NCBI RefSeq assembly: GCF_036669915.1
Contig: NC_089314.1
Location: 1,259,470 to 1,323,469 of the forward strand
DNA length: 64,000 nucleotides
Reading direction: 5' to 3'
Origin: Pocillopora verrucosa
Taxonomy: Eukaryota > Cnidaria > Anthozoa > Scleractinia > Pocilloporidae
The notes under the pieces are model-generated. The model searched no databases. It was given only the letters and a program-made list of their open reading frames with translations, and was not told the DNA's origin. Every line of letters begins with the position of its first letter. Position 1 is the stretch's first letter. The position numbers and the translations under genes are program-made. Positions 6,149 through 62,417 of the stretch are shown piece after piece.

Positions 6149-11191
<5,043 letters not shown>

Positions 11192-14716: not shown

Positions 14717-15646
14717 TCACAGCGAATAAATCCAAGTTTCTGAGTCCACGTTATTCAGGTCTGAATAATTCGGAGCTCGACTAATTTCCGCACCAGTTTC
14801 CTTCTGACTTAGATCGCTTTGCTCTCCCAACAAATTTGTCTCACTTACAGCATAACGCTTCAAAACATCGCTAGAGAAAGCCGAATTAAAACTTTTCAAG
14901 CGGGGTTTCTTCCGAGGTGCCTCTTCTGGTTGTGGGTCATTCTTGACACGAGGGCATGAATTTTTCTTTGTGAGCTTTGGTTTCTCGGGAGCAGCATGAA
15001 GGCTTTCGTCACTCTTATCGCCACTTTTGCCAAAACTTGAATTTAAGTTGAATTTCTCATCTACGTACGCACCAAAGCTCTGTGCAAGAAACTGCTGACT
15101 TGCGCGTAAAACTTCCTCAGAAAGAGCTCTCTTAGCTTTTGGAGTCCAATTTTCGCAGTTTTCAACATCACCACTGGAATGTAAACTCTCAGTTTCCAAG
15201 CTTGATGTTGACCCGTCCATGTAGGGTAGAAGCAGATGCTCTTTCCCAGCTCTAAGAATCGCTGAAGCTAAAAGGAAAACTATTCCTTCTCCTTTTGCGA
15301 CATCTATAGCAAGTTGACCTTCTTGCGACATTGCTGTTACATCCACGCAAGAGTTAATTAGAAAGTTTACTACGTCGACATGTCCGCCAAAAGCTGCGTA
15401 ATGCAAACAAGTCCATCCGCGCTCATCTCGCAGCTCTAACTCCGCTCCATTTTCCATCAACAACCTAGCCATTTCTAACTGACCAGAGAGGCAGCTGCGA
15501 TGCAGGACTGTGCTCCCTTTCTCGTCCTGTTCATTTATCCTCGCTTTGTGAAACTTCAATGCAAATTTGAGTTGCGCAAGGTCATTTGCCTCAATCGCTA
15601 TATTGAATACTCCCGCAACACTTGTCCTCCTTTGACGATGTGCCAT
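14717..15646 (-). CDS. Ankyrin-repeat protein, single exon, 309 aa
   Basis: Probable intracellular adaptor. The N-terminal half holds ankyrin repeats. Two are canonical: about residues 43-75 (STVLHRSCLSGQLEMARLL) and 76-108 (GWTCLHYAAFGGHVDVVNFL). They are flanked by a degenerate first repeat (about 16-42) and a last one about 109-140. The arrangement recalls small PPP1R12/PPP1R27-type ankyrin proteins, but I see no RVxF phosphatase-docking motif, so that assignment is only a resemblance. The C-terminal half is Ser/Glu/Lys-rich and probably disordered, with a basic cluster RKKPRLK that could be a nuclear localisation signal. The ATG at 15646 is the first in frame and the stop is TGA. No introns are needed; a single-exon structure among intron-rich neighbours could mean a retrocopy or simply a compact gene. 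Specific partner unknown. Confidence 0.75.
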   Translation of the reverse strand: MAHRQRRTSVAGVFNIAIEANDLAQLKFALKFHKARINEQDEKGSTVLHRSCLSGQLEMARLLMENGAELELRDERGWTCLHYAAFGGHVDVVNFLINSCVDVTAMSQEGQLAIDVAKGEGIVFLLASAILRAGKEHLLLPYMDGSTSSLETESLHSSGDVENCENWTPKAKRALSEEVLRASQQFLAQSFGAYVDEKFNLNSSFGKSGDKSDESLHAAPEKPKLTKKNSCPRVKNDPQPEEAPRKKPRLKSFNSAFSSDVLKRYAVSETNLLGEQSDLSQKETGAEISRAPNYSDLNNVDSETWIYSL

Positions 15647-17301
15647 AGCAGGAGCCTGTGAGCTTGTATCTGTTGGTTTATTTGACGAAACATAAATGCT
15701 ACATCACTTTCATCTTGTTCTGTTTAAAGAATGACACAAATGATTAACGGTGATGTAATTCTCGCTTCAACAAGCGCATTATTATGTAAATTACGAATCG
15801 GTTCAAAATATAATAAGCTTCAGTTTATTCGGATACTGTCATGAAAACTCCTTGAATACAAAGCATGGTTGATTTGTTGAGGGAGTTGATGAGTACGTTG
15901 TGTTATCTTTGGAAAATTATCCATACTTTCAGATTAGTAAAGAAGTTGGTAAGCTCGATGCAAAGCTATCAGGAAGTCAAGATGTTTAAGCAACTAAATA
16001 CGATTTACTTTGGCCTTATATAATAGGCTAATTTAGCTTTTCAACTACTCCTGAGCCGAACTGAAGATCCAAATCGGAAATTTCAAACATGGCTCTCTTT
16101 GAGAAGTCACGATATATTTGATAAATATGTGTCAAACGTAGAGGATCTGTTAGATATATGGTAATTTTGTATGTCATCTTTTCTTAAGGTGGGAGGTCGC
16201 TGAAGTCGTTGAAAAGGGGGCCAAAAAGTGAAGAGGACAATGAGCTGGAATAAAGAAATACAAGGCCAAACTTTCTATAACCTTTCCGCAAGACTCGCAA
16301 ACTATGACGTGCCTCTTAGGGAATCATGTAAATCTCTGTAGCGCCTTTGCTTACTGAAGTAATTAGTGATTCAGCAAGTAGTCGGTGTTTTAACACTAGC
16401 GCGTGACAAATCCTTACAAAAAAAAGAAGCTGTCATCTAATGAAAAATAAAAAAATTACGTTGTACTTTTTTCAATAATGCATGCTTACTATTGCAATAT
16501 ATTCCACAGCTCCTAAAGCTGTACATATAGATTAATTTAGTAAATGTTGTTCAAGGTGGTACCGGCTTCATTTTCATTAAGTTTGCCACTTCAGTTTCAT
16601 TAAGTTAAGCTTACAATCTAATGCAATAATGCCAAAACCACAACATTGTTCATCAGAAACCACAATTTTTCGTTCAAAGGGCAACTTTCACGGTTATTTG
16701 AAAACGACGCCAGATTGTAAAGTGAATCGCTATGAAACAGAAAGATTTTGTAAAAGACTAAACTAGATCCCGTCGAAACCACCACCAAACTGTACCTTCT
16801 CGAGCTTTTACCGGATAAAGTATCTTAGAACATTCTCTTGAAGTTGATAAACACCGAAGCAGCTTAGAATAAAATAAGCTTAATTCCGGCATCTGCTTGA
16901 TTTTTATCATTGACGACAGCCGAGAGGACGCCACATCAAGATTTACCTTGTGATAAATCAATTAATTAATTTGGTGGTAGCTTCCTTTTTAAGCATCGAT
17001 CATTTACTCAGGAAAGCGGCATGAGGAAGATCATAACATTCATAAAAAAATGTCGTTTTCTGCTCTTTTGATTCGGAGGACTCAATTGAATTGCCGTTAC
17101 GCTGCCCCTGTTTTTCAAAATTTTGTTTTTTAAATTCTTGCATAGTTTCCCGGATCCGACTTTTACTGGTCAGTCCCATATGAATCAAGAAGATTGATGT
17201 TTTGAAGAAGCAAAATATGTATCCAGTCAGTTTTAAAAAATTCTTCATTTAAAGAATCCATTTTTTCAGCAGCAATTGAAAAAAGGGAGTTTTTTTTCCA
17301 T

Positions 17302-18946: not shown

Positions 18947-21217
18947 AAATTTTAGGGTGTTTGACAGATGACAGTTCAAATCCAATTAAGATGGTATTTT
19001 AGTGCTCATTTAAATCGCCGCTTTAAACGATCCTTAAAATAGCCATCCTAAAAGATTCTTAAAATCGCGCCACTCCATCGCCTCTAGATTGGCCGCTTTA
19101 ATTGTTGTCAAAGTTCCCTCAGATCAATACCTAAACTGTTCATTAGACGTTCATTAAAACCGCTTAAATGGCCATATTTATTAGAAGTTACTTCTGATTG
19201 GCCAGTCTTGTGCTCTAACAGAGCCCAGCTTTGCGATAGGCTACATGATAAAGAGAAGCACTGAAACAACATAAAAATCGACTTAACTGTTGAACTGAAA
19301 TTCAATTTAGGTGAGAAAATTTTATTGATATTTAAAAAATGTTCAGTGTGTATTTTCAGAAATAATCTGTAACAATGTCTGACTTAATCAACGATTGGTC
19401 AATTTGAGATTAACAGGTGTAACAAGAATGAGCTAAGTTGCTACCCATAATAATTTTTCTCCCAGGTATCATAAGTAACATATATGATCTTCTAACTTTT
19501 CTCTCGTCTCAAACAACAGTCACTGAAATTGGAATTCGAAGTGCATCAGAAGAACTATCTAATAATTATTTCCTAGAAGGAATAATTTTATATTTTTATA
19601 TCTATTTATATTTTTCATTATCAGCTAATTTCTGTAGTTGTCGGAGCTGTTTTTTTTGCAACGGTTTTCTTTTTATAATACTTATATACTTGCGTTATTT
19701 TTTCTTAAATGGTATACAGGATATTAGTGCGCACAATTTGTATTCCTACTAGTCGCTCTCATAATATTTAGGAATCTTTTTTGAGAATTAAAACGAGGTC
19801 TCCACTTTGAATTTGGTCTTATTGAGATATCTTTGATGAAGTGGTTTTTACAACACGCTATCTCATAATTGTCTCTTTGAGAAAGCATCCTTTGACTCCA
19901 AAACCTACTTCATTATGAAGTTCATTTCTGGCAAATGAAACTCCTGTGCTAGTTATACAAATTAATCAATCAGCCTCCTCTTGAATAGAAAATGTGTCAA
20001 ATGTGTATCTTCTGTTTAAATCATGACTAATGATTGACGTTGGTGGTAGTCCTGACTATTTTCAAATTTTTGAAACAGAGATACTAAATAAGCCCAGGAT
20101 AAAATTGAAATCAAGCAGTGCTTTTTTGTTGCACGCCGGGTGGTTTATGCCCGGGTTATAATTAGAGCTTACAAGCCAAGGTAATCTTCCACTTACTTTG
20201 TCTTCATTGGCAGAATTGAATTGAAAAAATGAAGTTGCTTATTATTAACCATATCTTTCTCAATCGCCTTTTAAATAACATTAATTTAAGGATCGTCAAC
20301 TTTGTTCGAAATTGCCCAAAGATAAACTGATAAACTGTCTTGTATCAATTTTTACTTTAAGAATTTCGCACAGTTAAAGACTGAAAGAGACAATGAACAT
20401 ATAGAGAAAGGAAAACGAAGAAGCAAACGTATTAATAACATCGATCGAAAGTTGAGTTTTCGTCCATAAAAAACTCAAAGTTTTTGGAGTTAAGTTGAGT
20501 TGAGTTGAATCTAGAGAAATTAAATTGAAGTCAATGGAGTTATGCTGATAACTCATCAGTGTCTTCGTTTGATCCTTCTTATTTTTATTATTTATATTTT
20601 CTTTCAGTTTCCATTGTCCTTTAGAAAACCTCAAAATGTAAATGATATCTTCCTGGGAATTTAACACAAACGCGTGTGCTAGAACATTCTCCCTGATTTG
20701 CATAACTTTGAAGTCAATGCGTTATTAGCGATATTCAGCGGGTATGCGCGAACTCCTTGTGCCAGCTGATAACAACATACACGACCGACAATACCTTGAA
20801 ATATAAACTCCTTAAGGAATAATTTGAAGGTGTCGTAATGACCAAAAGAGTGATCATTATTGGTTGAAACTAGGTCTTAGCATCTGAGGTGCAAGGCAAT
20901 AACACTATGGAAAAAAATTAGTCACCTGCTTCACCTGTCACAATGATCACTCAAAATGATGACAGCATGCGAAACATTTAATGGGTTTCCTCGATCTACG
21001 TCGCCAAAAATTTCCTTCAAAATACGTATTCTGAGATAATTGTAAGTAAGGCCCAATATTTGATACTTTATATTGTTTAAATTCAATAGTATGGTATTTT
21101 TTGACGGTCATAAGAAGCAATACAAGGAGTTGTATCGCTCATGTGTGAACGAAACACATATTTCAACAGATTTGTGGAAGACTTCATCTAAAGGGAATAA
21201 GGGTACAAACGTTGATC

Positions 21218-22858
21218 ATGTTGAAGAAAACAGAAGTAGGAAAAGCAACTCGAAGGAAATACCCAAAGGTAGAGGAGAAGAAAAGGAAGAGCGCTGACAG
21301 CAGAAACAAGACAAGATTTAGCAGGACAAAAGCAGCGACAAACGAAGGGAATGCATTCAGATACGAGGCAGAAATTCAAGAAAACACTGCGATTGAAAGA
21401 AATGCTTCAGAAATTTACAGTTTCCCCGAAGAAAAGCATGTTAATGAAATGCAAAGTGAAGGAGAGCTAAAAGTTGCGAGATGCGACTTTCGAAAGCTAA
21501 GAAGTTTTGACATGGAAAGCATTGATGACTCTCTCAGCATGATATCTTTAAATTCTCGACCAACGTCAGCCGTTACTGATTTTGCAGAGGAAGTGAAACT
21601 TGAAAGTGATGAAGAATTTTCAAGTTTGGAGAAATTAAACGAAAACGATCAATTTCTGATGCGGAAGATTTCAAATGAGAGCAATTCGAGTGATTTGGAA
21701 ATTTCAGTTGACAAAGGGTCGCCAAGGATACAAGGCATTGAAAATCGAGAAGAAAGTGATTTGGTTGACGAGGAAACGGAGAGAGACAATTCCAGGAACG
21801 CAATTGCTATTCTTCCCTTAGAAGAAGTAGAGATAATAGAAGAGAAAGGAAATAAAAAAGCCAATGTTAAATCTGCATGGGAATTGAATGAAAAATTCCT
21901 TTTAACCGCAGACTTTCCAGCCAGAATTTGGGAAGAGAAGATTAATGGAAAAGCAATGAATGCAAGAAGGAAGTCATCTGAACTATTTAATGCAAGTTTT
22001 CCTCCATTATCTTCAGTCTCTGAATTACGAAGAGGCTCATATCCTATTTCACCTTTGATGTCCTCAGGTTCACCACGTGAGCTTCCATTACTATCAGGAA
22101 GACAATGCAAAGTTAAACTTCCCACGCATTTCCCAGGGGTGCCCTCCCCTGAAGTCGAAGGTGATTCCGAAATCAAGTCTTCGGATGATGAGGTGTTAAA
22201 TGCTTTACTCCTGGAGAAAGGACAAAAGGCAGGGGGAAATAATGCAAAATTACACAAAAAACGAATTGATGTTCCCGGAAAACAGGGAAGTAATTTGACA
22301 ATTTCCTCCACTAGGTCATCTCCCATTCTAAGTAGATCGCACTCACCAGTGGCATCTACAGAAACTCTTGCAATGAATGTTGCATCTACTGAATACCTCG
22401 CTACCCGAGTTGTCACCCAACTAGACTGTGCTTTACAAGAGACTGTCAACGTCAGCAAAAACAGATCAACGATTCGCGCAGGTTGTGTGACGCCAAATTT
22501 GATGCCCCAAAGGTACAGCTCTCTTTCATTTCGTCCAACCACGAGCAACTATTTCAGGGGAACAAGCAATTCACTTACGCTACCCACAGTTCAAGACAAA
22601 TGCAGCAAAAGTTTACCAAATTTGACGGATAATAAAACTAAAAGAATGTTTGTGACATTCGACAAAGATCTTCCTCGCGCAAAAGTAGTCGACTTGGAGG
22701 GAAAAAGTGACGTCTCACAGAAATGTCGTCTAATTAACCGCAGATTATCCAGCGAAGACGCATTAGTAAGGGCCATGCTCGACAAAAAAATTCAAAAGAA
22801 GGCAATGGTAAGAAAGTGGGTTGTTTCATCTTCGCAAAGTACATTAACTGCAGAGTAA
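21218..22858 (+). CDS. Serine-rich, probably disordered protein of unknown family (about 546 aa)
   Basis: Long open frame that I do not recognise. The first ATG in frame is 21218; the frame is open back to an upstream stop at 21146, and a candidate splice acceptor (TTTCAACAG) ends at 21169, so a 5' exon could add residues. The N-terminus is very basic (KKTEVGKATRRKYPKVEEKK), the middle is acidic and Ser-rich, and the C-terminus is again basic. Several basophilic-kinase-like sites are visible (RRKSSEL, RRGSYPISP, NRRLSSED), as is a SPILSRSHSPVAS segment, which suggests a phosphoregulated cytosolic or nuclear protein. No signal peptide, membrane segment or folded domain is evident. The best candidate for a conserved part is the last 90 residues (KSLPNLTDNKTKRMFVTFDK onward). 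The stop codon lies inside GAGTAAGC, a possible splice donor, so a further exon is possible. Confidence 0.6.
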   Translation: MLKKTEVGKATRRKYPKVEEKKRKSADSRNKTRFSRTKAATNEGNAFRYEAEIQENTAIERNASEIYSFPEEKHVNEMQSEGELKVARCDFRKLRSFDMESIDDSLSMISLNSRPTSAVTDFAEEVKLESDEEFSSLEKLNENDQFLMRKISNESNSSDLEISVDKGSPRIQGIENREESDLVDEETERDNSRNAIAILPLEEVEIIEEKGNKKANVKSAWELNEKFLLTADFPARIWEEKINGKAMNARRKSSELFNASFPPLSSVSELRRGSYPISPLMSSGSPRELPLLSGRQCKVKLPTHFPGVPSPEVEGDSEIKSSDDEVLNALLLEKGQKAGGNNAKLHKKRIDVPGKQGSNLTISSTRSSPILSRSHSPVASTETLAMNVASTEYLATRVVTQLDCALQETVNVSKNRSTIRAGCVTPNLMPQRYSSLSFRPTTSNYFRGTSNSLTLPTVQDKCSKSLPNLTDNKTKRMFVTFDKDLPRAKVVDLEGKSDVSQKCRLINRRLSSEDALVRAMLDKKIQKKAMVRKWVVSSSQSTLTAE

Positions 22859-25747: not shown

Positions 25748-28711
25748 TTAGACTGCTTTGCAATTAAACGTCTTTAAACCGAGGCCAAAGTAATCACAAC
25801 GACCAATCAGATCGAAGCGTACCATAATCGAAAATGGGTCTTTTAAACTAAACTGAACTTCAGGCGTTACCTTGTATTTCGTCCTCCACAATGTTTCCAC
25901 TATGTCCAAGAGAAATTGTTCATCCGGTAGTGTCAGGCTAAAGCTTATTGTCAATCCTTGTACCATGTTATCGTGACCAAAGAAGCCAAATTCTCCCCCT
26001 TCCCTATAGCAAGCGTAAGTGCCTCTTGTGGGGCACCTCCGATTTCCGCCATAGAATTGCATAACCTTTAGTGAAAGAGAACGGCTCTCATCTTCCTTAA
26101 TAAGTCTGGTCACTTGCACTCGCGCGGTCACGTACGGGTTGTCAGGGCGACCGGTTTCATTTATGGAAATAACTTTGCCTGTGAAAGCTGAAATGAAACA
26201 TGTTAAAGAGGAGTATAGTCAGCTGCATTCATTTAGGTTTCATAGCACGAAAGAACCAAGAATAACACCACAAACATCTCAGCCCGTTACCGTTACAGAG
26301 TTACCAGACCCGCCCCACTCCCTATACAACGTTAAATCAGGGTGTCCCCTAGGATAAATTATAGGGATGTTGTCTTGATTAGCTCATAGAATGATCTTTA
26401 TCATTAGATTTTGGTAACGCCAATAATAATAATTCAGTGTCTGGCAGTCTATGAGAATATTGGAATTTGCGACAACTGGGTTTCAACTGCAATGTCCAAG
26501 TGGACCGACGCCTCTTCTTTCAGCCGCAAAAATCTCTCGCTCAAACTTCAACAAAAAGGTCACTCATGAAACTTAACCGATTTACTTGAAAGATCCCCAC
26601 CACCCGAATCTCTAACATTGTTATAAATCAGCTTATGTTTTTAACAAAGAATATCTGAATATCGCAATTCAGTTATACTTCGTAGTGAATAACGTAAACT
26701 GGATACCGTAGATTCCGGTGTTAGTACTTACACATGTGCATATGTGCTCATGGTGACACAATGATAGTCGACCATAACAATGGCATTAAAAACGAAGGCA
26801 CTGAATCGTTCCATTAAGTAAACACTCTTGGGTCTGGTTTTCATGGTATGAAAAATAATTATTTGGTTTTATCGCGTTGGTCAGTGGTATACATTCTCAT
26901 TTGTTCCGTTTCCAGAGTTGACAGTTTTTCACTGACACTGAGGTGAATAATTGTCTCAGTATATAACATACACAAACCCAAAAAGTAGTTTATTTCTTTC
27001 AATATTCCAAAAATGGTCTCTGGCTGCCTGGAGGTGAAAGATACAACCTAATGACTTCCGAGCCAACCGATTAGTGCGTGAGGAAAGTACTATTCACCTG
27101 TGAAGTATATGTTAATGCTAACTATTGTTTTTGAAATATGTATATCAAGGATTACTCACCAAAAGTATATTGGCTTCTAAAGAAGGCTTCATAAAAATCT
27201 TTCGTAAAATTACGTATTACTGAAAATTAAGAAAATTTAAAATAATTAGTATAAATGACAACCAAACTTCATTGTATAAAACTGGACATGCAGAAATTTT
27301 TTCGCTTCTGAGGGAATGTTTGTTACAATATTGAAATGAGGGTTGTGGCAGAGATCTTCCTTTCCCATTTTACACGTTTTTTATTCCTCTACTTTATCAC
27401 CAGTTCACCATTGCATTTCAAGATTGTCAAAATTCAAAATGATTGGTAATCCTCTCTATCTGTAATTTTGTAAAAAATAATTTTGAGTCTTTTTCTTTTT
27501 AGTTTACCTTTTTAGGTTCGATAACTTCAAACTTTTAAAAAATATAATTATGCTCGCAGGAATACAGTTTTTTCTGTCGTGTCTGTCGATCAGTCAGGAC
27601 AGACTCAAGTACGGTGAAAACTCACATTTCGCGAGAGAACTCCATAATGAGCATATTTCGCGCCAAAATATATCGTTTATAGATGTCTGACCGCTAAAAT
27701 TGTTTCAACGAACTTTCACTGAGCTTGTATCAAAGGAACTGGTCAGAAAATTCAACTACGCGGAAAAATGTGATCCTATTAAACGGAAAGATAGAACGGT
27801 AGTGGAATGGTGGGATGGCGGAATACCCTACGACGCGGAATGCCTTGTTGTGTGAAACAAAAGTCTCTCAAAAATGGAATTGCAATGGAATGCGGTAGGT
27901 TTTCTGTTTTGCATGTGAGAAAAGTTTTCTGTAACGCTCCTTGTAGCGTCATCATACATCATTTATTTCTTTTCAATGCTATAAAAATTGTGTTATATCA
28001 GTAGCCATATGCAGTCTTAAACTGCCTAATTTTTTTTGGAAGAGCAAACAAAAATCTTCAAAAATCTAGTCTACGGTCCGGGGAAAACAAACAAAAAAAT
28101 TGTTCCCAAGGTTTACACTGACAAGTGTAGAGAAAGGCGGAAATTTAGCACAAAGTAAGACATATTCAATACTTACTGTACCAATCCCATGATTGATCAT
28201 AGGTCCATCCTGTACGCATGTCAGGTTGCATGCAAAGTTTATCGTCATAGAACGGAAGATATCTGCAGTTATGTCTCAGAAATCCAACGGTCATATGGAG
28301 TGAAGGAGATACGTACTTATCCTTGCACGCGGTTGCGAAATTCATACATGTCTCACGGCAGGGCCTCAGTGGCATACCAATATGAAACGTATGAGTACAA
28401 GTGGCGATGTTCAGCGAACAGGTGTAGGCAAATATATCGGGTGGGCAAATTCTCTGGTCGACCTTATAGAACATGTCGTGCAGGTCTGGAAACTTAGGAT
28501 TGAAACGGTACCTTCTCAGAAAACTTCGCCAGCTTATTCGAACCATTATCCTTACAAATTTACGTGGACCTCCATACCCCTTAACCAATATGTGCCTTCT
28601 GCACCGAACGATCTTCCGACTCCAGTCCTTACAATGGTCGACTTTTTTTCTCATGTCATCGCTAGAAACTGTCGCGGGAAGAAGCAACATGAATATCACA
28701 AGGAAATTCAT
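25748..28711 (-). CDS. Divergent secreted Frizzled-CRD protein with unrecognised C-terminal domain (3 exons, 341 aa)
   Basis: Exons 28711-28177, 27219-27160 and 26178-25748 join in frame (535+60+431 nt, both introns phase 1, GT/AG sites). Residues 1-17 are a signal peptide. Residues 27-160 look like a Frizzled cysteine-rich domain: ten Cys, with the diagnostic block MPLRPCRETCMNFATACKD followed by a Cys pair near RYLPFYDDKLCMQPD. It departs from standard CRDs by a long basic segment between the second and third Cys (about residues 34-75). After the CRD, residues 179-341 carry four Cys (RRC, YAC, GRC, FNC), two N-glycosylation sequons (NFT at 182, NET at 205) and beta-rich text, but no netrin-like or Frizzled transmembrane pattern I can recognise. 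It is therefore a secreted protein, possibly binding Wnt or another lipid-modified ligand. The sFRP gene at 40-46 kb on the same strand has the same three-exon, phase-1 layout, suggesting a diverged paralogue. Confidence 0.75.
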
Positions 28712-28750: not shown

Positions 28751-28762
28751 CCTTTTATGGAG
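28751..28762 (-). promoter_or_regulatory. Possible TATA box of the divergent CRD gene
   Basis: The minus strand reads CCATAAAAGGCG about 45 nt before the ATG at 28711. ATAAAAGG is close to a TATA box and would imply a very short 5' leader. No further promoter evidence. Confidence 0.3.
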
Positions 28763-32482: not shown

Positions 32483-32637
32483 TAAAGAGGGGAAGGTTTC
32501 TAAAGAAAATGTGGAGCTGCGCCGGTGGGAGAGTATAACTGGGTAATTTGCTATTATCAACTGAGTCGATAACGTAAATTGGCCACCGTACAGAGTTACA
32601 AAGCTGACGTTTCGAGCGTTAGCCCCTCGTCAGAGGG
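32483..32637 (-). repeat. Dispersed repeat family A
   Basis: Full-length copy: + strand reads GGTTTCTAAAGAAAATGTGG at the start, ATCAACTGAGTCGATAACG in the middle and GCTGACGTTTCGAGCGTTAG near the end. Minus reads CTGACGA then GAAAC. Confidence 0.75.
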
Positions 32638-37210: not shown

Positions 37211-39858
37211 AAGTCGTTCAAAAAATGAATGCATGACGTACAATGAAAACTTTTGGCCACATTTAGATCAATTTAGAACGCGGTTTTACCAAAGTCTGAA
37301 TTGATTTCTTGAAATGAGGACGCACTGTTTCAACTGTAACCTCAGCTGTTTGTCGTTGCTGAGTTTTGTTCGTTGTCTAGCTCAAGGTAAGGTCAACAGT
37401 TTCGTTCTATACTGTAGATCTGTTGTTCATATCGTGCAGTGCGAAGGAGAATGATTTTGAATTCTCTGTTTTATGCGGAATTCTTTATTTATTATGACTA
37501 AAATGCGAAGCAAAAGTCTTGGCACGCTCTAATACTTTTTAAATTTTTTTTATAACTTTCATTCATATCCTCCTCTCCCCCACCTCCATGTTGCCAGCAT
37601 GGTGTTATTTATTAAAAAACAACGGTCATTTATTTTTTTTAACATTGTTTGGGGGAAAGCGGGAACTTTCAAGTAACTTATTAAAGATGAATCACAACAT
37701 TTCTGTTTAATTTGTTGCGAGAAGGTTGTAGACCACCCACAAAAATAATGGACCTTATTCGCCCGTGAGACCCATTAGTAAGGGGAGGTTACTAATTATA
37801 CTTTAGCTACTCATTGTGGATCTTACTTGAATGTAGACTTTGATTGATTTTGCTTGTGAATAGTGGGCGCTGAGTATCGCAGTTTTACTTGTTTGTTTTT
37901 GCCTTGAGTGTTTTTTTCTTCTTGTTTTTCTTTGAATATGGTTGTGTTCTTTCAGGCCTGGGTTTTTAGTTTGGAAAAAAGCTCCAATGTTCCAATTCGC
38001 CTTACTGCAGATATGGGATGTGTAGAGGTAAAGAGTCCTCTGTGAGTCCTTCTTCGCCACCAAGGGTTAGCGTTAGGAGAGGCATCAAGGTCAGACTAAG
38101 GCGGCCATGAAAACTCAACAAATTTTATATTCGATTGAAGTGACTGCATTTGTTTGCTGTGCTTGGATCGAAGCCCTATATTTTGGAATCTCTCGAACAC
38201 GTGAAACGAATTCTTTTCATTAAGGTTTACTCTAAGGGAAATACATGCCATGTTTTGTGTGGAAAGGTTGTTAATAAACTTTCCGGGGCAAAAGAATGAA
38301 ACGATTGTAAACCAACATTTCTCTAAGACCCTGTGGTATTTCCTTTGCTGGACTATTATGTTAGGTATCGAAAAATAATGTATTAAAAATTAAAACAAGG
38401 TACTGTGTTTATTTAAAACATGAAGGTACTTATTGAACGGCACCAACATCGTTCAGCATGCATCGCGAAAATAGTCGGTGTGAACAGCGGACGCATTAAA
38501 CAATATCAATGACGTGACCTCAATGCTAACATGGATAAGTTTTTATTACAGTGATAATATCATAACTGTGGAGAGCCTCACTGTCTCTGTTCCACTTATG
38601 ACTCTCCAGTGACCTCAGACAAAATATATTTACAGTTTTATTATCTCGGAAATGCTTTAGGACCCATTACATGATATCTCTTGTAGAGCTGAGCCAAGAT
38701 TATAAAATTGCCGTTCGCTTAATATAATTGAATCATGAGAGAACTTTATGGGGTAGTGTCACGGTTGGGCGTGCGTGGATTTGCCCACCACTTCTGTGAT
38801 TATTTTGAAACCGTCCACCGTCTTGAGTATTTATGAAGTCTTCATGAAAAAAACAGATGAATGGATCTACCGTTACACTAATTATTTCCCTGATTGTCTT
38901 CTTTTCAATTTAAACCTCAAAAGCCAGTTTTTACATGCTTAAAACTATTGACAGAAGTGAATACAAAAAAAAAATTGAGATACCGATCAAAGATTATATT
39001 TTTTTCCCAAAACACCGTTAAATCTTTACAAGATTGTTAAGTAATTACACACAAGTCGCTCATATATTAAACACATGAAATCGTTCTAAGGAGAGGATAT
39101 AACTAACCAGATTATCATCATTTATGGCAGGGTCAGAGCTTAACATCCTTGTTTCTTATTAAAAACGTACAAAAAAAACAGGATTGAATATTTAAATCAA
39201 CTACCTATCTGTGATCCTCTAAAAACAAGAAGATAATTTCGACTGGTGTTGTATTCCATACACGATTAGAAAATTAATCTGTGCTACGTATTATTCTAGA
39301 AGTTTCTTGTTGCTGATTGTGTCGATAAAATCATTTTCCTCTCTCAGTGCTGAATTTGTTTCGTTTTACAATGTTGTCGTCATCTCTTAGCACTGATTTT
39401 TCGTCCGTAGGACGAAAACTTCGCTAAGAACCGTTGCAACTTATCGCTAGCAGTCTTCATACCCTGAGATTAATCCAGTGAGCTCGACATTATTCTATGG
39501 AAAAAGAAGGACTCATGTAATCCTGTCTAATTCTACGAACTTCAAGATGTTTACTTTGTATCAAACTCATCTTCCATTAATGACCCTGATTTGGGGATGA
39601 AAATGCTGTTTGAAAAAAGAATAAAAGAAATAAATAAAGTTAGTTTTCGACTTATAGTGTCGAAAGTGGCAGTGGCCACTTTTTCACTTATCAGAATTTT
39701 GAGAGTAAACATTGCCACCTTTTCACTATTGCCGTTTTTTTAAGGTTAGATTGGTAATTCGAGAAAATAGCAAAAGATCATCATAAACCTCCCCTCAATT
39801 GAAAGAAGTTTTGGGAAATTGCCTTCAAGAATTAGCAATGAAGCCATCAACCACTTTA

Positions 39859-40171
39859 AGAGGGTAATTTAGTATTAGCAACTCAGTTAATAACGTAAAT
39901 TTGCCACCGTTAAGAGTAATAATAGTAATAATAATTTATTTACTTCTGTTACGCGTGTTGCATATGCAGATACTCACAAAGTTTCAAAGCTGACGTTTTA
40001 TGGCCCTTTTTCGGAGCGAATGAAGAAGCGCTTGCGCTCGAAACGTCAGCTTTGAAACTCTTTCCTGTGGCCAATTTACGATATCAACTCAGCTGATAAC
40101 ACTAAATTACCCTGTTATACTTTTCCACCGAAACTGCACCACATTTTCTTTAGAAACTTACCCCCTTTATT
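39859..40171. repeat. Inverted pair of family A repeats (fold-back element)
   Basis: Two family A copies face each other. Left half reads GGTAATTTAGTATTAGCAAC, right half ends with the complement (ACACTAAATTACCCTG, then TTTCTTTAGAAAC). The centres TTTCAAAGCTGACGTTT and CGAAACGTCAGCTTTGAAAC are complementary. A short (TAA)n-rich insert lies in the left arm near 39916-39940. The right end reaches within 10 nt of the sFRP stop codon. Confidence 0.7.
40166..40171 (-). promoter_or_regulatory. Possible polyadenylation signal of the sFRP gene
   Basis: TTTATT on + gives AATAAA on minus 10 nt after the sFRP stop. It sits at the edge of the inverted repeat at 39859-40171. Cleavage this close to the stop would leave almost no 3'UTR, so a more distal site is also possible. 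Confidence 0.3.
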
Positions 40172-40180
40172 CATTGGAAT

Positions 40181-43100
40181 TTACTCAAACTGCTTACCTT
40201 TTCTTTTCAACTTTTTGTTTCTCCTGTTTTTTTTTCGTCCAGAACTTTTCACTGCTAGACGTCTTTCCCACTTTCTGAATTTTTCCACCCAGGCTCTCTC
40301 CCAAGGGACGATCAAACCCGTATCACGAAACAAGTAGAGTTTGTGCTGTTCAGCAACCACGTGACCGGCCACTAAGAAAGAGGCGTCTACCTTGGGAACC
40401 TGTGGACAGTTGCATGTGGTATTCCTGTGCAGGTAAATAGAGTCTCCCTTCCTCAAGTGAATAGAGCTTTTTTGTAGGATCCTCTCAATTTTTCCCTCTA
40501 TTACTCCGCCATTGTCCTTCTCTGTAGTTGAGGTGATGAATACTTTTAAAACTGTGGACGGAATGCACATAAATTAAAGTAGCAGTTAGATGCTGTGTCG
40601 TAAATTTTTCATACGAGGAAACAAAAAAGACTTGTTATTAAAACAAAAGGGGGTCTTAATGGGGTAATGGCCTTTACTGGTAAAGGTTAAACTTTTGGCC
40701 AATTTACGGCCAATAGTTTGCAGCATTACATCTTTGTCACCAGAAATTTTTTTACGGTTATTTTTTTTCTACAGCTAGCGGTTAAAATTTGTTAATTGGG
40801 CCATTTTACGGCTAACGGTTAACCTCATTAAATCGTTATTAAAAGGCTACACTGATGTAGATCCAAAGTTCTTGGTGATTGCTTTATCGACTTATTACCC
40901 AAACAATTATCCACTCGTAGAACTCGGTGCAAGTAAACCGTTTGTTCTTACTGGCATTAATGAGTAAATCAGAGAATCCTATACAAGAGCGATAGAATTG
41001 TATGCCTATTTGAATGCTTATAGGATATGTCTGTGAAAAAAAAATTTAATAATCATAATCGTAATAATAAATATCATGCATGATGATTATGGTAATAATC
41101 TTCATTAATGATAACTAGACGCACGTCTACGTGTACCCCGACACCCCTGTGATGGTAAATGTAGGCTCATTCTTTTTTTAACCCTTTAACACCTAAGAGT
41201 GACAATCATCTAGTTTTTCCCAACAATATCACCCCTGAACCACACATTAAGGTTACGACAATAAAAGACATGATCACCAACTAAAGATACTCTTGATTGT
41301 TGGACAAATTCTTCATGTCACTACCTCGAAAAATGTACCGAGAACAGTATGGAGAATACGCATATTGATCTTAGGACGTAAAGAGTTAATATGGTTTCCA
41401 CATTTATTTTATATAAACATTTTAAAGGACCTGTGTAAAGCATTTAAAAAGCACGTAATATATGTGTTAACGCTTTCACACAGTTTCTTTACGTGCGTTT
41501 AAACTTGACCTTGCAACCTTTTTGTTAAAAAAAAAAATGCATGCACATCGATGATCGTGAGGACGAATAAAGCCGGATTCTGAACCGAGGCCTCCAACGT
41601 AGCACTTTAGTAGAAATATCATGAAAAAGTGGGTCCGGTCTCATCTGTGTGATAACAAGTATCATTCTGTGCGTAAAACCCTGAATTGTTTTCGCTAGAT
41701 ACTTCAATGACTGTTTCAAAGACCTGTGCCGTACATGCGGGCCAAATAATTCAACAGCTTAGGAGTGCAAACCAAAACAACTTACTGAAATGGTAAGAAT
41801 TCCTTTTATACCGCTGGTAGTTTACACGAGGCTTGATGCATCTGCAGGATGACACTGCAAGACAAACGGTGAAGATAATCAAAAGATAAGTTTGTATTTA
41901 AGACAACAAGATTCAAAAGAAAAAAAAAAGCAATTGACTCTATTTCAAAAGATGTATGGCCCGAAGAGAAACAGCGAAGCGTCATAGTTTACAGAGTTTT
42001 ATTGCTGATCAAGTCATTTCAAATGTTTCGAGGTTTTCTCACTTTGTCGATTATTTAAAACATCGTTCTCCTAAGCCTTTCGGAAAGTACTGCTGCCATT
42101 GTCCATGTCGCGCCGTCGTCGCGCCGTATGACCATTACGGTCATAAATCGGAGACGGTTTTTGAGAGATGTCGACTCAAAATTCATTCAAGTGAGAGAGA
42201 AGTTACCGAAACGAATGATTTCATGTTAAGTCTACTTTATGGTCTTTCTCTGGAAAGTCAGTTACGCAACCCTTTTCCCTTCGCGTCCACAATGGGACCT
42301 CAAATACGACAACGGCGGGCGTGTACGACAGCGATCGGGAACTGAGGTAACGGGGAGAGGAAACCGTCGCCAATGGCGAAAAATAGGATTTCACAGCTGC
42401 AGAGGAAGCGAAGGGACGGGTGGGACGGGTTGATTTCATCTTCAATCTTTCGTTGAACGACGCAGCACTGTGAAGGTGTCATCTTGTACAACATCTCATC
42501 GCTTACGTGCCTATCGGTTTGTTTTGCGTTGTTTGTTGTTGTTGTTGTTGTTGCAATTGTCTTTTTTCAAAATTAGATTCTGATAGTTTCATACCATATT
42601 AAGGTTTATGATGATATCAACACACTGATACAGTGTGCTGCAACTCATCTTTGATCTTTTCTTCAATTTCACAAATCAATTCAGGGTACTTAAGATGGCT
42701 ACCCTTAGAAATCAGTTATTGGTCACTTTGGGTTAGCACAGCATTAACTTATCTCTTAATCAATACCTGAGAGCTAAGCTGATATATGTATATTCCTTAT
42801 ACGACATTTTGATTGGTCGAGAAAACCAAATACCACTTGAGTATTTCAACTTCAATTACAGCTCTAGCATTGATACCACTTACTTGAGGCATGCTATTAT
42901 ATTTTTTTTTGTAACTAATTCCGCAGCTACGTTTTAGCAACGAGGTGTCTCATCTAAATTTCAAACAGATCTATTTCGAAATACTCGATTTTGTTCAAGA
43001 TCGTTCGCACTAACCCCTAAAATATGACAATAATATTACTTAGGTAATAATGCTCTTATAACATATGAATGAAATAATATTGTGGATCAGCCTCTGACTA

Positions 43101-46001
43101 ATCTTTTACACGCAATCTGCGGTTGAGGCACTCTCCACTATACGGTTGACTTGGTGTATCTCAATACTTTCAGGCGAACCTTTCGCGTTTGCGTAAACTT
43201 CAAAGCTCCTATCAGCATAATCAAAGTGTTTCTAGCCAAGTGGCTGTCGATATTTTACTTATTTTCTTAAGCAATAATCAACACCGCGTTTGCTGTCGAA
43301 ATCGCGTGACGAAGTAAAAAAGAAATACGCATGAAGACCAATGCACTGCCTGTTGTTGTTTACTTTAACTATGTTGAGAATAAAGCAAGTTATCGAGGGC
43401 TTCTCACCAAAAATAAACTTCGGTTTTCTTTCATGTTCTGTGGCCGGCGTTTAAACAGTTTTCCTTTAAAAGGCATCCCAATAAGTGCAGTCTATTAAGC
43501 AAATTAAATTATCGCAAAAATTTTAGGAATGTTGTAGGCAAGTTTTAATAACTGTAATAATCGGTTTACGGCAATTTACTCTGAAAGGGGCTTCATTTTC
43601 TAGAGCCGAGGTAATATCTTTTCAATGTTACACCAAAGTAAAAGAAAAAATTCTGGAGTGAGATTGATGGACGAAAAGAATTGGCGGAAAATCGAAAGAA
43701 AACGGCACTCATAACGAGGCTTTCTCTCTACAAGTAAAACTTAACAGTACATAATCTCCTGAACGGAAAGAAGACAAAGAAAATACTTCAAAACAGACAG
43801 TAACATGATTTATTTTTAAGTTGGTCTCGCCATAAAGGCAGGGTTCGAATAAAATAAAACCCTACGGTATGGAATTCGCGCGCTGTGTCCGAAATAATCC
43901 TTCAGTATTCAGTAAATTAGTTTTGGACTGGACCTGCGGAAAGACTTGATAGGCCTCTTGAATACCTCTCGCACCCGCAAAAAACTTGGAATATATTTAG
44001 GCTTAACTCTAATAAAAAACTAAACAAAGGAAAAAGTAGTTCTAAAAATGTAGTACACGTTCATTTAGTACATTGTGATTCTTTTGCAACTTCCTTCTTT
44101 GGTTCCGATTTCGATAGCAGTGTCTTAAGTTTTTAAAGGAATAGGAGACTAAACTATTTGTCCGCATTGTACTCTTTACCAGATATTGGGATCGGCAAGC
44201 AAACTTTCACACGTTTCTTAACTTCGTGTTAGATTTTTTAAATGGATTTCAATCATTTCCTGTCTGCCCTATGAACTCTGGGAGGGAGAGCTTCTGAAGA
44301 GCTGCTATGTCAAGGATATAATGAATATGATATGATTTAAAGGCATCACGCAATTCCTGTGGGCTTTTGAAAAAGAAGTCATATGTTCGTAAACTCTGCT
44401 GGCTTAATAACTACATTGCTGAACCTAAATGCAGCAGTCTAATATCACTGCAAAAGTAAAAATTTATTAATAGAAACTGAAAATATTTTTAGAACTTTTT
44501 ATGACACGGTTTTGGTATTCAAGAACACAACATAATTTTGACCTTTCCATCGTTAGAGACAATTTTTTGGTTGTTATCGACGATGTTCACAAATGTTTAC
44601 AATTCAAGTAGAAAGATAGAGAAATATTTCAACTACGAAAGCCATACGCGACCTCGAGAGGCATAGTCAAATGATGCACTCCAAAACTTCGGAGAAAAAT
44701 CAATGGACAGATATGAATGGTTGACAAGTCTTTACCTACAAATAAATCACACTCGGATTAAGAGACTGCAAGCATTCTTTCGTATTCGTGAAGTTGGAGT
44801 CACAGCAAATTAAAGGAACGTGACCACAAATTTGTTTGGTAGTTTGAATATTTATCACCAAGAAAAGTGTAATTTCCTGTGAATTAATAGGAAAGTCAGC
44901 TGTGTTGACATAGGATTCTATGCCTGTACGATTCCTAAATTTTATGAGTTTTTTAATTTGGCCATATTTTATTTGAATCGAATTTACAAATTAAAACCCG
45001 GTTATCTTAATTCATGGATAGAAGCAACTCACAGGCTGGATATTAAAAGAAACGGACGAATGATAATTGAAAGTTACAAGGCTTGGTTAATCTAGTTTAA
45101 TTAAAGCTTTGAAAAATCCGCCAACCCAGTCAGAAACAACAAAAGTTGACAGTCAATCAAATGTTTGAAATTTCATTTAACCAACCTCATATAGGGTCAG
45201 TTTACGTGGCGTAAAAGTAGCCTAAAGATCGGTTTCAGAGAAGCGCATGAAAAAAAAGTAACCCATGACCTGTAGAGTGAGTCGCCGTTTATAAGAACAT
45301 TTTTGAATAAAGCAACGCCATATTTCGTAACTTTGTACACTAGATAAACATTTAAAGAATTTGAGACTCTTAACGTTAACTGCATGATCATTCCTTTCAA
45401 GCCCTTAAATCCGAAGGGCTGGCGACAAAGGAGTATATTTGTCGTTTTGCGAGATCAAACGCTTAGTGGACCTCTTAGTGCAAATGAACAGTGAATAATC
45501 CTGATGAATTTTTAAGACGAACGATTTAATTAAGAAGCAAATAATACAGCCTTGATTTTACTTACCAGATTTAATAAAGGACTCAGGCTTGATGCAAACG
45601 TCGCTTTCATAGGATGGCAGGTCCTTACAAACGACGTCGGGGGGCCACTCCCGGTTGTATTTTCGGATGGTAGGCATACACTCTCTCATGACCTTTTTGC
45701 AAACTGATCTGCACGGACGAATTGGCCTGGATTTAAACTCTGGTGCACAGATGGGTAGGTGATAGGCACAGAGGAAAAATCCTGCATCAGCCGAACAGTT
45801 GATAGCGACGATGTCACTGTATAGCTCAATCCTTTGCCTGCTGTATTGTTGCGTGAGATGTTCAAGCGCATTAGGAAACATTGTCATGTTGTACGGCAAG
45901 TGTTTCTGGCAAATTGGAATCTTGATGGGCTCACATGTTCGGCCTGCCAATGTGATCACAATATCAAGGCAAAACACGACAGTTCCCATCAAAAGATACA
46001 T
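40181..46001 (-). CDS. sfrp: Secreted Frizzled-related protein, FRZB/sFRP3-4 type (3 exons, 291 aa)
   Basis: Secreted modulator of Wnt signalling. Exons 46001-45566, 41854-41786 and 40551-40181 join in frame (436+69+371 nt; both introns phase 1). Residues 1-20 are a signal peptide. Residues 23-136 are a textbook Frizzled CRD with ten Cys: CEPIKIPIC at the start, FFLCAYHLPICAP in the middle and IRPCRSVCKKVMREC plus WPPDVVCKDLP later. The small second exon carries CRC (149-151) that opens the netrin-like (NTR) domain, which continues to about residue 265 through LRKGDSIYL and NTTCNCPQV. Near the end, WVEKFRKWERRL matches the conserved EKW...VKRWDMKLR segment of vertebrate FRZB/SFRP4. The last 20 residues are strongly basic and probably bind heparan sulfate. 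Intron 1 is about 3.7 kb and intron 2 about 1.2 kb; both contain repeats. Subfamily assignment is by recollection of FRZB/SFRP4 sequences, not by alignment. Confidence 0.92.
40656..40832. repeat. Inverted-repeat element, family E, in sFRP intron 2
   Basis: Left end TTAATGGGGTAATGGCC and right end CGGTTAACCTCATTAA are imperfect inverted copies, with GGCCAATTTACGGCC and GGGCCATTTTACGGC inside. Looks like a small MITE. Only one copy seen in this window. Confidence 0.5.
41178..41389 (+). repeat. TTAA-flanked MITE-like repeat, family C
   Basis: About 210 bp with ends TTAACCCTTTAAC and GTAAAGAGTTAA, that is, CCCTTTAC-like inverted termini inside TTAA duplications. Internal landmarks: CCTAAGAGTGAC, ACACATTAAGGTTACGA, CTCTTGATTGTTGGACAAAT. 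Termini and TTAA target resemble piggyBac-type non-autonomous elements. Lies in sFRP intron 2. Confidence 0.65.
41855..45565. other. Intron 1 of the sFRP gene
   Basis: About 3.7 kb between the CRD exon and the small NTR exon. It contains a locally CpG-rich stretch with an open frame (about 41956-42450) and a (TTG)n microsatellite. No nested gene can be asserted. Confidence 0.7.
42530..42553 (+). repeat. (TTG)n microsatellite
   Basis: About eight TTG/GTT units in sFRP intron 1. Confidence 0.85.
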
Positions 46002-50001: not shown

Positions 50002-53000
50002 ATGTACCCTCTCCTGGCTCAGAAACTTGGTTGTTCTTCTTTGAGAAGTTATTTAGTCTGTTTAACTCCAAGGAATTTCATCACGTACAGGTATCAACCG
50101 CTGCAAAAGCTGAAAGAACACTTTTTTTGTATTCAAGGCTCAGTGTAGTTCTTGAAGCTTACCCATCGTTGTATTGGGCTAGCTGCGAACGATCCCTGCT
50201 TGCTTTCAGCTTTTGCGTTTGGTTTATCATTATAATCTAAAATGTGTACTTTTGTGTTGCATACAGCGATCATTTCATTTACATTTTGAGATAATAACTA
50301 TGACACACCCCCTTAATATCCGTCTCATTTTTTAATTTTGTCTTAGGGGAGAGGGATAGAAGATTCTCCCCGAACATTCACCCTTCCCCCCACTAAATAG
50401 CCCAGTCTTCAGAGTACAATAGAACTTAACAAGATCTTGAGCGAGTCATTTTTGTCTGTGTGCAAATGCAAGCAATTCATGGTTGCAGTATTGATTACCT
50501 TCTGCATGCAACAAACAATGCTCTAATTCTGGTGAGGCCATTAGGGAGGTTCTGAGTTTGCTGTATCCTTTTAATTTTTGTTGTTAAAATATTCTGTTAA
50601 TTCGTGTGTTTTGTAGGTCCAGTCCAATATCACTGAATCTCTATTTTAAATATTCCCAATCCCGTTAATTTTTTCCATAAGTATCCTGTATACCCAAGTA
50701 TTATGTATCTGATAACCCCTAAGAGGGCCTTTCTGTCGGCACAATCAGCATCGAGAGAAAACATGTATACTTGACATACTCTAGTAAGAGTGCCTTCACT
50801 GGTGGTCTGAAATGGTGTTAATAATAATAATAATAATAGGTCATTTATAATACGCTAATTCAATAAAATGTTCAAATGCACATGACAAGATTAAAAAACA
50901 AAATGAAAAGGCTAAAAAGATAAAATTACAATTAAGAGTAAACTTACAATAATTTAAAAAGCTAAGATTACAATTAAAAGTAAACTCACAATAATAAAAA
51001 CAATTGCAGGGCTTGCCTTCAAATTTCACTCAAAATTTTATAAGTCCATCATTTTCCAGACCTTAGCTTTATTTGCACATACTTGTTGTTCAGTCATCTG
51101 GGAGGTTCTGGCTGGTTTAAATTTTTCCTTTCAAACTTCCCATACCATTGGGACAGTTTTTTCATTTTTTGAGCAATGTAATTCTCTTCTATTTATAGGA
51201 GTAACAGACTAACAGTTCTTAGGGAACATCAAATCTCAAAAATCATCACAAAAAGTGCTTCAAAATATACTGCAGAGGCATTCAGATGGAGAACTTTGCA
51301 TGTCTGGAAATTATTAGAACAGAGATCAAATTCTTATGCCCATCCCTGGTATCTTCTCAAGTATACTGGACTCTTAGCTGTTGGAACTTTAGTTGTCAGA
51401 TCAAAGATTTCTAGTGCCTCCTGTGGGCCGAAGTTGAGTCACAAGTCATCATCACAGCTTTCGCAGGGCAAAGACAAAGATGGGAAGAGATCACAGCCAA
51501 AATTTGATTTCAGAGAATTCTGGAAATTCCTGTGGCCTGATATTTGGCTTTTACTATTAGCAAGCTTGAGTGCTTTTGCAGTTGCCATGGTGAACATTGA
51601 ATTACCGCTGTTGCTTGGGAACCTTGTAAATGCTGTCTCTAGTTTAACAAGTGGCAATCTAAACACAGACATATTTCAAGTATTAAGAGAACCTGCAATG
51701 AAATTGATATCACTTTATGGGGCTCAGTCAGTCCTTACATTTGCTTATATCTCATTTCTTTCTTGTTTGGGTGAGAGGCTTGCAGAGCGAATGCGCAATG
51801 CTTTATTTGCATCATTGATACGACAAGACATTGCTTTCTTTGATGATCATAAAACAGGAGAGCTAGTCAACAGGTATGTTTCCTCTTCTAAGGGTTGCTT
51901 GGCCAAAACAGCTTTATTTCATTTTCATGGAATATCATTAATTTATAGCACATACATACGTAGGGTATATGAAAAAAAAAAAATAGACATACAAACCATA
52001 CCATGAACATAACATTCACTCTGAAAAACCAAGGACTCCCAGCTACCACTTTCCGTAATATCATTACAGTGGTCCAATCCTCTAACGGTATGAATTAACT
52101 TTAGATAAGTTCATATATTATTTTTTGTTCACTGCAAAATTTAGGTCAAAGGATTGTTCAGGGTAAGCTGCATGACATGCATGCATTTTGATTGATTCTT
52201 ATAATCTGTAAGATGACAGATGCTTAGATGATGCCACCATTACCAACATTTTGCCTTTCTATGATACATAAAAGGATTCCATGCTGCTGTGAGTCTGTAC
52301 AGTAATAGATCACAGAAGACATCAAGATGTCATCTGCTTTGTGCCTAAACATTTCTCTGCTCCCCCAAACTGAATGCTAATTATTTCTTGAATTGAAAAT
52401 GTAGGTGGCTCACTTAGAACCTTTTTTTTGTCTTATATGGTGGAAAATTTTCCTTGAAGGTTGACCAGTGACATTCAAGATTTCAAGAGTGCATTTAAGC
52501 AGATTATTTCCCAAGGTCTGCGCAGTACAACTCAGACTGTCGGCTGTGTGGTATCACTTTATATGATTTCACCCAAACTGACAGGTGTAATGATGGTCAT
52601 CTTACCAGTTGTCATTGTTGGTGGTACTTTGTTTGGCTCCCTATTAAGGAGGCTCTCCAAGGCTGCTCAAGAACAGGCTGCTAAGGCAACTGCAGTTGCT
52701 GATGAGGCTCTTGGAAATGTGCGAACTGTGAGGGCATTTGCTATGGAAGATAAAGAAACTAAGTAAGATCATAACAAAGTCACTGTTGCCCTCACAGACC
52801 ATTTTTTGAATACATTTTTTTTTTAATGCATCTTTTCTAAATAGAATCATGCATCTTTGTCTATCAACTTTCTGACTTTCTTACTTTCTGGAAGGTTCAG
52901 AGTGAAATGATGAAGTATCTTATGGCAAATATATGAGTTGTAATACGATAATGAGATTATCTACATTACTTTCAAGTGAATTAACCCTCCTAGAAGTGAT

Positions 53001-56000
53001 TGACATGTAACATCTCCCTAATATCCTTACAATGTCCAGGTAATGAGAATACTCAGACCTATCAGGTTGAAGTTGTTGTCTTGATCTAACACCAAATTCT
53101 CATAACTTATTAACAAGAAATTGTGTAGCAGCTAGAAGGGAGATTCAACAATCAGATCTTGGGATTTAAAGGGTTAAGAGGTTTTTTGTTTTAATTTTGT
53201 TTTGTAAATTGAGTTTTATTCTTAAGTTTTTTTTAATTTGACAGTGTTTGTAAAGAAAAATATAAAATGGGCAAAAAATTTGTCAAGGATTAAATATTAG
53301 AGTATACTAAGAAATATTGTAATTATTCCTATGGTAATGAATATAATAATTTCATTAGCATTGGCTGGATCATCTTGCAGCTTGTATCAAGATGAAGTGT
53401 CTAAATCCAAGGCACTGAATGAGATGTTAGGTGTTGGAGTTGGGTTGTTCCAAGGTCTGTCAAATCTAGCCATTAATGGCTTGGCACTGGTAGTGTTGTA
53501 TTATGGTGGATCACTTCTTGCTGCCAAAGAAATGGAACCTGGAGACTTGATGAGCTTCCTGGTGGCTACACAGACTATACAAAGGTACTTTATTGGACAG
53601 TATGGCTCACACACCTTTCTTCAGGTCCTAGCACTTTTTTATAACTAAAAAAAACAGCTAATAAGTTTTAAATTTTCATTGTGTGGGAAATTTAATAAAA
53701 TAATGAGAGATTTTGGCTGCAAAAGAGCAACAACTTTAAGATCAAGACAAAACCCAATGAGCTTTTTTCAGAACTCAGACCCTCTTAAGTCTGATTTTTG
53801 GGCTGTATGCTCAGCTATTGTAACAGTTCCAACTTTTTCAGTTGTTGTAATTTTCTCAATTTAGATTCTAATTTCATAATGAATAAAAAGAAAGGAACAT
53901 GAAAATTGAACTGGTCAGAAAAAATTTAGACCAGGATAAACCTTTGAATCACCTGACTGACAACCTTCTGTGTTGTAGGTTTGTATAATTACCTAATTAG
54001 GTGTTAATTTTCTTCTTTTACAATGTCAGGTCTTTAGGTCACATATCTCTCCTATTTGGCCAAATTGTGCGTGGCATGAGCTCAGGAGCAAGGGTGTTTG
54101 AGTACCTAGCAATCGAACCCACCATACCAGTTACAGGTGGTAAACAAGTCCCCCTTGAGAACATATGTGGAGAAGTTAGCTTTAAGGATGTTACTTTTGT
54201 GTATCCTACACGACCCATGCAAACTGTTCTTAAAGACTTTTCCCTGTCAGTGCCAGCTGGTAAGATGGTTGCTTTGTGTGGAAGTAGTGGAGCTGGCAAG
54301 TCAACTGTAGCAGCCCTGTTGGAGCGTTTTTATGATCTGAAGAGTGGAAGCATTTTTCTTGATGGTCATGACATAACTTCCTTGGATCCCACATGGCTGA
54401 GGGGACATGTGATTGGATTTATTCACCAGGTATTTAGACTGTGAATAAAAGCAGGTGCACTTTATTAAGAACCAAATTACCTTGCAAACATATTTTGAAT
54501 TAAACAAGGTTGCTGTTACAACCAGAGAGTAGACAGGTGTGAAACAGCATGAACATAAGTTCTAGTTATTGTTAATACACAGTTGTAATCCAAATTCTGT
54601 TCACTCATATTGATTTCTTTGGGCATAGCTTTAAATTAAGTACTGTTAAAGTCAGTTAGAACTCTCTCTTAAAATCATTCATGTAGGAATAAAAAATGTG
54701 ACATTTCACCTGATGATAACAAATTAAGCATGAATAAAAATATTTAAGAAATAGTCTTTTGAAAACATTAAAATGTTAAACATTTTTTTCAAAATATCAT
54801 TTCCAGCCAGCCTTCTGCTATCATTTTTATGTGTTTGTTCTTTACATCCAGGAGCCTGTGCTGTTTGCCACTTCAGTTTTAGAGAACATACGTTATGGCC
54901 GCCCAGAAGCAACAGATGATGAGGTATATATAACAGACAACACCTTGTGTCATGATCATTGTCTGATGAATTCATCAATTTTTTGTTACATTATTTCCTT
55001 TGATTTTTTCCCATAATATGAAGGTTTTAGCAGCAGCTCAGCAAGCAAATGCTGATGGCTTCATTAGAGATTTTCCTGAGGTAACTGATTGCACTGTATT
55101 CTTTTGATACCAGTCATTCTTTGGAATGGCTCAACTTTTGTGGTTGTCATTGTTCAGCAGATTAATTTATTTCTGCTGTTTCATGTCATGTGATATAAAA
55201 AAAGTTTCTAGCTTGTGGTAGCAAAAAATTTATTAGCAACTAAAATTTGAATCTGGGTGATCTGACTGATGCAGTTGGCATCAAATGCTTAAGTTTATAA
55301 CCTCAAAGTCAGTTTCTATCAAAAGCGGCAGATATTTATCTTCTTTTATCTCAGTGGTCAACATTTACACTTTAAAAAAGTTAAACCCAACTTTTCTTCA
55401 CAATGTTTCCACAGATATCACATTGTAGTTGTCACAGGGTCAACTTTTCCTAAGTCTTGGCATTAATCTTTTGTATCCTGCCATCTGAGTATCCCTGCAA
55501 AATGAAATCAGTAGCCCATAAGGCAACATTTGAAATGATATTGTACTCAAGCTTCAAGGTTCTAGTGCTATGTGTCGCAACTTTGCACAAATCTCACTTT
55601 ATTCCACAGGGATACCAAACTGTCCTTGGAGAGAGAGGTGTTACTGTGTCAGGAGGACAGAAACAAAGGTGTGTAGTATTTAAAACTTTGATGAATATAA
55701 AGCAGAAAGTATCAGTCAGCTTTTTTTGGTTTTTGAGAAGAAGCTGCCAAATGAGTGATAGTTGGGTAAAACTTTTTTTTAAAATTATTTTGTTTGTTTG
55801 TTTTTTGCTAGGATTGCAATTGCCAGGGCACTTCTAAAGAACCCAGCCATTCTCATCCTAGATGAAGCAACAAGGTATTTTCAGTATGCCATATAGACTC
55901 ATTTCTTTTGCTTTTTATTAATTCAAATCAAATCATGATGTTTATTATATTCACAAAAATTCATAAAACGACAGAGATTATCCATGTTGATGGTGTTCCC

Positions 56001-60733: not shown

Positions 60734-62417
<1,684 letters not shown>

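Follow-up and report, generated by a model that had tools for sequence, protein, structure and literature searches.

According to PMC8417734, secreted Frizzled-related proteins (sFRPs) either sequester Wnts, by way of their cysteine-rich domain (CRD) or their netrin-like (NTR) domain, or bind Frizzled. The same source gives three exons for SFRP1, 2 and 5 and six for SFRP3 and 4. According to the description in PMC4669655, a CxC motif is the sFRP3/4 form, and an NxT motif occurs in other sFRP3/4 proteins and in Frizzleds. Among cnidarians, Nematostella sFRP1 is listed with Frizzled and C345C domains (among PMC4300403, PMC12225738 and PMC12549020). Here we analyse a 64,000-nucleotide stretch of the Pocillopora verrucosa genome (contig NC_089314.1), hereafter the window, and in particular a minus-strand locus at 25748-28711, the candidate. 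In terms of homology, this locus is probably an intact sFRP paralogue that has diverged fast and whose NTR domain is derived; a conventional gene of sFRP3/4-like type shares its strand. The sFRP plan is kept in its exon organization and CRD, is supported at the start of the NTR domain and presumably extends through the remainder of that domain.

Results

The candidate is composed of three minus-strand exons (28711-28177, 27219-27160 and 26187 or 26178 to 25748). The initial annotation had spliced 28711-28177, 27219-27160 and 26178-25748 in frame into 341 residues, a result that we reproduced; a second acceptor of exon 3, 9 bp upstream and equal in frame, has its first base at 26187 and gives 344 residues instead of the 341 obtained with 26178. 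Exon 1 (535 bp, donor ACA/GTAAGT) encodes a signal-like N-terminus and a ten-cysteine Frizzled-type CRD (about residues 27-164), exon 2 (60 bp) is a short linker exon, and exon 3 (440 or 431 bp, stop codon at 25750-25748) encodes a putative derived NTR-like domain followed by a C-terminal extension. Both introns are in phase 1 and of the GT..AG type with consensus-like ends, GTAAGT with TTTTCAG for the first and GTGAGT with CATTTCAG for the second. As an open, spliceable frame, the predicted gene is intact. A TATA-like CATAAAAG, recognized by motif match only, is found on the minus strand at 28752-28759, 48 bp upstream of the ATG.

A conventional sFRP, unmentioned in the initial annotation, lies on the same strand at 46001-40181, 11.5 kb upstream of the candidate, and provides a direct reference for its organization. 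Since exon 2 is 60 bp long, its skipping would also keep the frame; its inclusion is supported because the neighbouring gene has a counterpart exon, a 69-bp linker, and because the NTR profile alignment described below starts inside exon 2. Stop-to-stop open reading frames (ORFs) of at least 189 residues number seven in the window, versus a mean of 0.04 per simulated 64-kb window (4 of 100 simulations), and those of at least 156 residues number nine, versus a mean of 0.34 (30 of 100 simulations have one). Exon 1, with its ORF of 189 residues, is therefore improbable by chance, and exon 3 alone (156 residues) is only mildly unusual. By codon score, the best of the three sense frames is the proposed one in exon 1 as well as in exon 3 (-0.03 and -0.04 versus -0.47 to -0.51), and in exon 3 it has the top score of all six frames; this is a weak support, with scores slightly under background and a training set of just 1411 codons.

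It is very improbable that the three exons do not belong to one transcript, exon 1 coding for a CRD-only secreted protein and exon 3 being part of another gene or a chance ORF. The ORF of exon 1, when read past the donor, indeed adds only SKY before a stop, CRD-only secreted genes are described, as Platynereis fzCRD-1 (PMC4669655), and ORFs of at least the length of exon 3 arise in the simulations at the frequency given above. On the other hand, the four splice sites all resemble the consensus and keep the frame, the exon plan follows that of the neighbouring gene, and the frame of exon 3 is the best of six.

The ten-cysteine CRD-like domain that the initial annotation had proposed is borne out, and its spacing is near that of Frizzled. 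All ten cysteines are present, the C3-C10 spacing (8-6-12-3-6-19-10) is close to that of the neighbouring sFRP (8-6-11-3-6-16-10), Pfam Fz matches exon 1 over model positions 40-94 with E=1.3e-5, under the curated cut-off, and the best PDB match is the CRD of sFRP3 (E=5.2e-4). The C1-C2 spacing is 9 in the candidate versus 7 in its neighbour. The proposed basic insertion between Cys 2 and Cys 3 is equally confirmed: this segment has 51 residues, with 14 K+R and 3 D+E, versus 37 residues in the neighbour, and it falls outside both the Pfam Fz and the PDB matches. In Frizzled structures the Cys 2-Cys 3 region contributes to the lipid groove, so that Wnt-lipid binding by the candidate is not to be assumed. 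As judged by eye, the N-terminus is hydrophobic and signal-like over approximately residues 1-17. Sequons are present at 182 and 208 only, so that the NxT/S found six residues after CRD Cys 2 in the sFRP3/4 class is missing. Two other CRD families were considered. A Frizzled receptor was rejected, since the spliced protein stops at residue 344 and Pfam recognizes nothing beyond the CRD, a seven-pass membrane domain included, and the Fz-like domain of RECK was rejected, its match reaching E=0.48 only.

The C-terminal half was said in the initial annotation to carry four cysteines and no recognised domain, and this holds: Pfam gives no match at E up to 10, and the PDB search gave no match either. 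Its further suggestion, a CRD architecture without a name, is probably wrong. The candidate and its neighbour have in common the succession of CRD, short linker and NTR exons (535/60/440 versus 436/69/371 bp), with introns in phases 1 and 1. Moreover, in a profile alignment that took no account of the introns, the exon 2/3 boundaries of the two genes fall on an identical NTR model column; its score was matched by 42 of 20000 shuffles, of which 3 (of the same 20000) also fell no more than 4 residues from that register. The top-scoring stretch begins in exon 2 and crosses the boundary into exon 3, and most shuffles align less well to sFRP profiles than do the linker and the first NTR strands. 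The strength of this signal, assessed with six HMM (hidden Markov model) or hhalign profiles and seven single sequences, depends on the profile: it is strongest with the sFRP3/4 set and weakest with the neighbour plus netrin-1, where hhalign is near chance (9 of 100), and it comes from sFRP3/4 sequences rather than from SFRP1. Because of the shared exon plan, phases and intron position, together with the alignment of the linker and first strands, the C-terminus is most likely of NTR descent and would represent a heavily altered NTR domain, not a new kind of protein.

Several observations weigh against this interpretation. The sequence signal is confined to the linker and the first two NTR strands, so that NTR identity of about 110 further residues is an extrapolation, and alignment of the C-terminus to NTR over the whole domain gives weak support. 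Absolute NTR scores are low, with one unrelated ORF of the window scoring above the candidate. When 2408 six-frame fragments of the window were scanned, the NTR profile recovered exon 3 (1.1e-30) and exon 2 (1.4e-4) of the neighbouring gene and listed six other fragments with E from 0.36 to 4.8, yet not exon 3 of the candidate. The CxC expected at the start of an sFRP3/4 NTR domain is absent from exon 2. Finally, the codon scores of the proposed frame are slightly under background, exon 2 scores -0.32, and an antisense frame of exon 1 reaches -0.07. On the available alignments, the C-terminus is not callable as an ordinary NTR domain.

It could, instead, be a non-NTR domain joined to an sFRP-type CRD and linker; the CRD architecture would then be genuinely new, its second domain binding a different extracellular partner. 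We regard this as unlikely, although the missing Pfam and PDB matches, the weak whole-domain alignment with its low scores, and the four cysteines with about 40 further residues that look beta-rich by eye all speak for it; a cnidarian precedent is also described, Clytia sFRP-A being a Fz plus lectin domain protein (PMC4169000). What such a domain would leave unexplained is the linker/NTR intron, whose position and phase are as in the neighbour and on the identical model column, and a top-scoring stretch that spans the exon 2/3 boundary. That the last 110 residues or so form a new extracellular fold or domain on the sFRP CRD and linker, and that the product is a secreted, lineage-specific CRD protein whose ligand is not a Wnt, appears rather improbable.

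The neighbouring gene has exons of 436, 69 and 371 bp on the minus strand, with both introns in phase 1. Its exon 1 (45566-46001) encodes the CRD, whose Cys 2 is followed by NxT (the NMT at 38, behind Cys 31), exon 2 (41786-41854) is the linker bearing the CxC (SSCRC), and exon 3 (40181-40551) encodes the NTR domain and a basic tail. Pfam recognizes both Fz (E=2.4e-26) and NTR (E=8e-11), and in the PDB its CRD is nearest to sFRP3 (121.6 bits versus 88 for Fz5). By sequence comparison, it is a conventional sFRP of sFRP3/4-like type. The three-exon plan alone is not diagnostic of a class, since SFRP1, 2 and 5 have three exons and SFRP3 and 4 six.

In a one-window tblastn database, the neighbouring gene finds the CRD of the candidate with E=0.002 and the candidate finds that of its neighbour with E=5.3e-5; no link between their C-termini appeared there in either direction. 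A recent duplication of the neighbour is unsupported by the CRD, the C3-C9 block of the candidate being the least like the neighbour among four CRDs. A decaying, functionless sFRP copy is hardly credible: the very high divergence and the loss of conserved NTR motifs would fit such a copy, but more than 340 codons, the splice sites and all ten CRD cysteines are intact, and stops would be expected in a neutral copy diverged to about 20% identity.

Scanning the same 2408 fragments with a CRD profile that included both genes gave no third copy in the window, the four remaining matches having E from 2.1 to 4. No relatives were found in viral contigs with exon 3, exon 1 or the CRD exon of the neighbour, nor in genome contigs with exon 1 only; these collections are viral and prokaryotic and uninformative for cnidarians. 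NCBIfam gave a single chance-level match (E=0.12). In a partial literature search, by titles and abstract beginnings, no sFRP with such a C-terminus was found.

Elsewhere on the minus strand of the window, a serine protease exon of trypsin type, extended by a long tail rich in proline, has two exons with CUB domains upstream of it, all three probably belonging to one gene (6149-9653); an ankyrin-repeat exon (14717-15703) and a LIX1-family exon (60734-61342) also lie on this strand. The plus strand has an ORF of 569 residues (21149-22858) that is rich in Ser and charged residues and for which Pfam gave nothing significant (best E=0.16), as well as ABC transporter exons (51182-55837), the first of them matching Pfam ABC_membrane; by eye, the ORF 54001-54444 contains a stretch resembling Walker A. 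Two 144-nt inverted copies (32489-32632 and 40021-40164; 83% complementary) and a 61-nt inverted pair (39857-39917 and 40057-40117) are probably copies of a small mobile element.

Discussion

The candidate resembles FRZB/SFRP4, the sFRP3/4 class, and its neighbour in its secreted form, as far as can be judged by eye, in its linker and the position of its domains, and in a ten-cysteine CRD with nearly equal C3-C10 spacing that ends in LPxY[DE]xxxCxxP[ED]; with the neighbour it also shares the three-exon plan and phase 1 introns. It differs from both in lacking NxT after CRD Cys 2, in a C2-C3 segment that is basic and exceeds that of the neighbour by 14 residues, in the missing CxC, in keeping only CP of the CxCP in the NTR region, in an extra C-terminal stretch with two cysteines, and in the lack of a basic tail. 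Platynereis sFRP3/4 is likewise described as lacking NxT (PMC4669655). With the sFRP1/2/5 class the candidate shares three exons (as given in PMC8417734), whereas its NTR signal comes from sFRP3/4, not SFRP1, and it has no CxxC.

In PMC4669655, two Platynereis genes are likewise described as sFRP3/4-related, fzCRD-1 and the divergent sFRP3/4; each keeps the ten cysteines but has lost one domain or has it in a highly derived form. In fzCRD-1, however, the NTR domain is at most a short remnant, and in Platynereis sFRP3/4 it is conserved beside a derived CRD, whereas in the candidate both domains seem to be derived. Comparable by description only are two sets of cnidarian CRD proteins, Clytia sFRP-A (PMC4169000) and the Corallium skeletal proteins CR_25 and CR_26, unannotated except for a Frizzled domain (PMC7853314). 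The CRD proteins described in PMC6386478, secreted or other, have a netrin domain in some members and not in others; absence there means absence in a Pfam scan, by which the candidate would also count as lacking the domain, though its exon plan suggests otherwise.

As to function, the candidate protein would be secreted, given the signal peptide seen by eye, and could then bind Wnt, a Frizzled CRD or cell-surface heparan sulphate, thus locally tuning Wnt signalling. The basic segment between CRD Cys 2 and 3 might keep the protein near its source, taking the place of the basic tail, which is present in the neighbour but not in the candidate. Taken alone, Wnt or Frizzled modulation by the candidate is plausible but tentative.

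A derived sFRP as such is unsurprising. If our interpretation is true, the candidate would be an sFRP paralogue that has kept its exon plan intact but whose CRD falls under, and whose NTR domain eludes, the standard profiles, and sFRP gene counts made from Pfam alone could miss such genes. The conventional gene and the derived one, both on one strand, would then form a pair suited to the question of how a new ligand is acquired by a Wnt antagonist.
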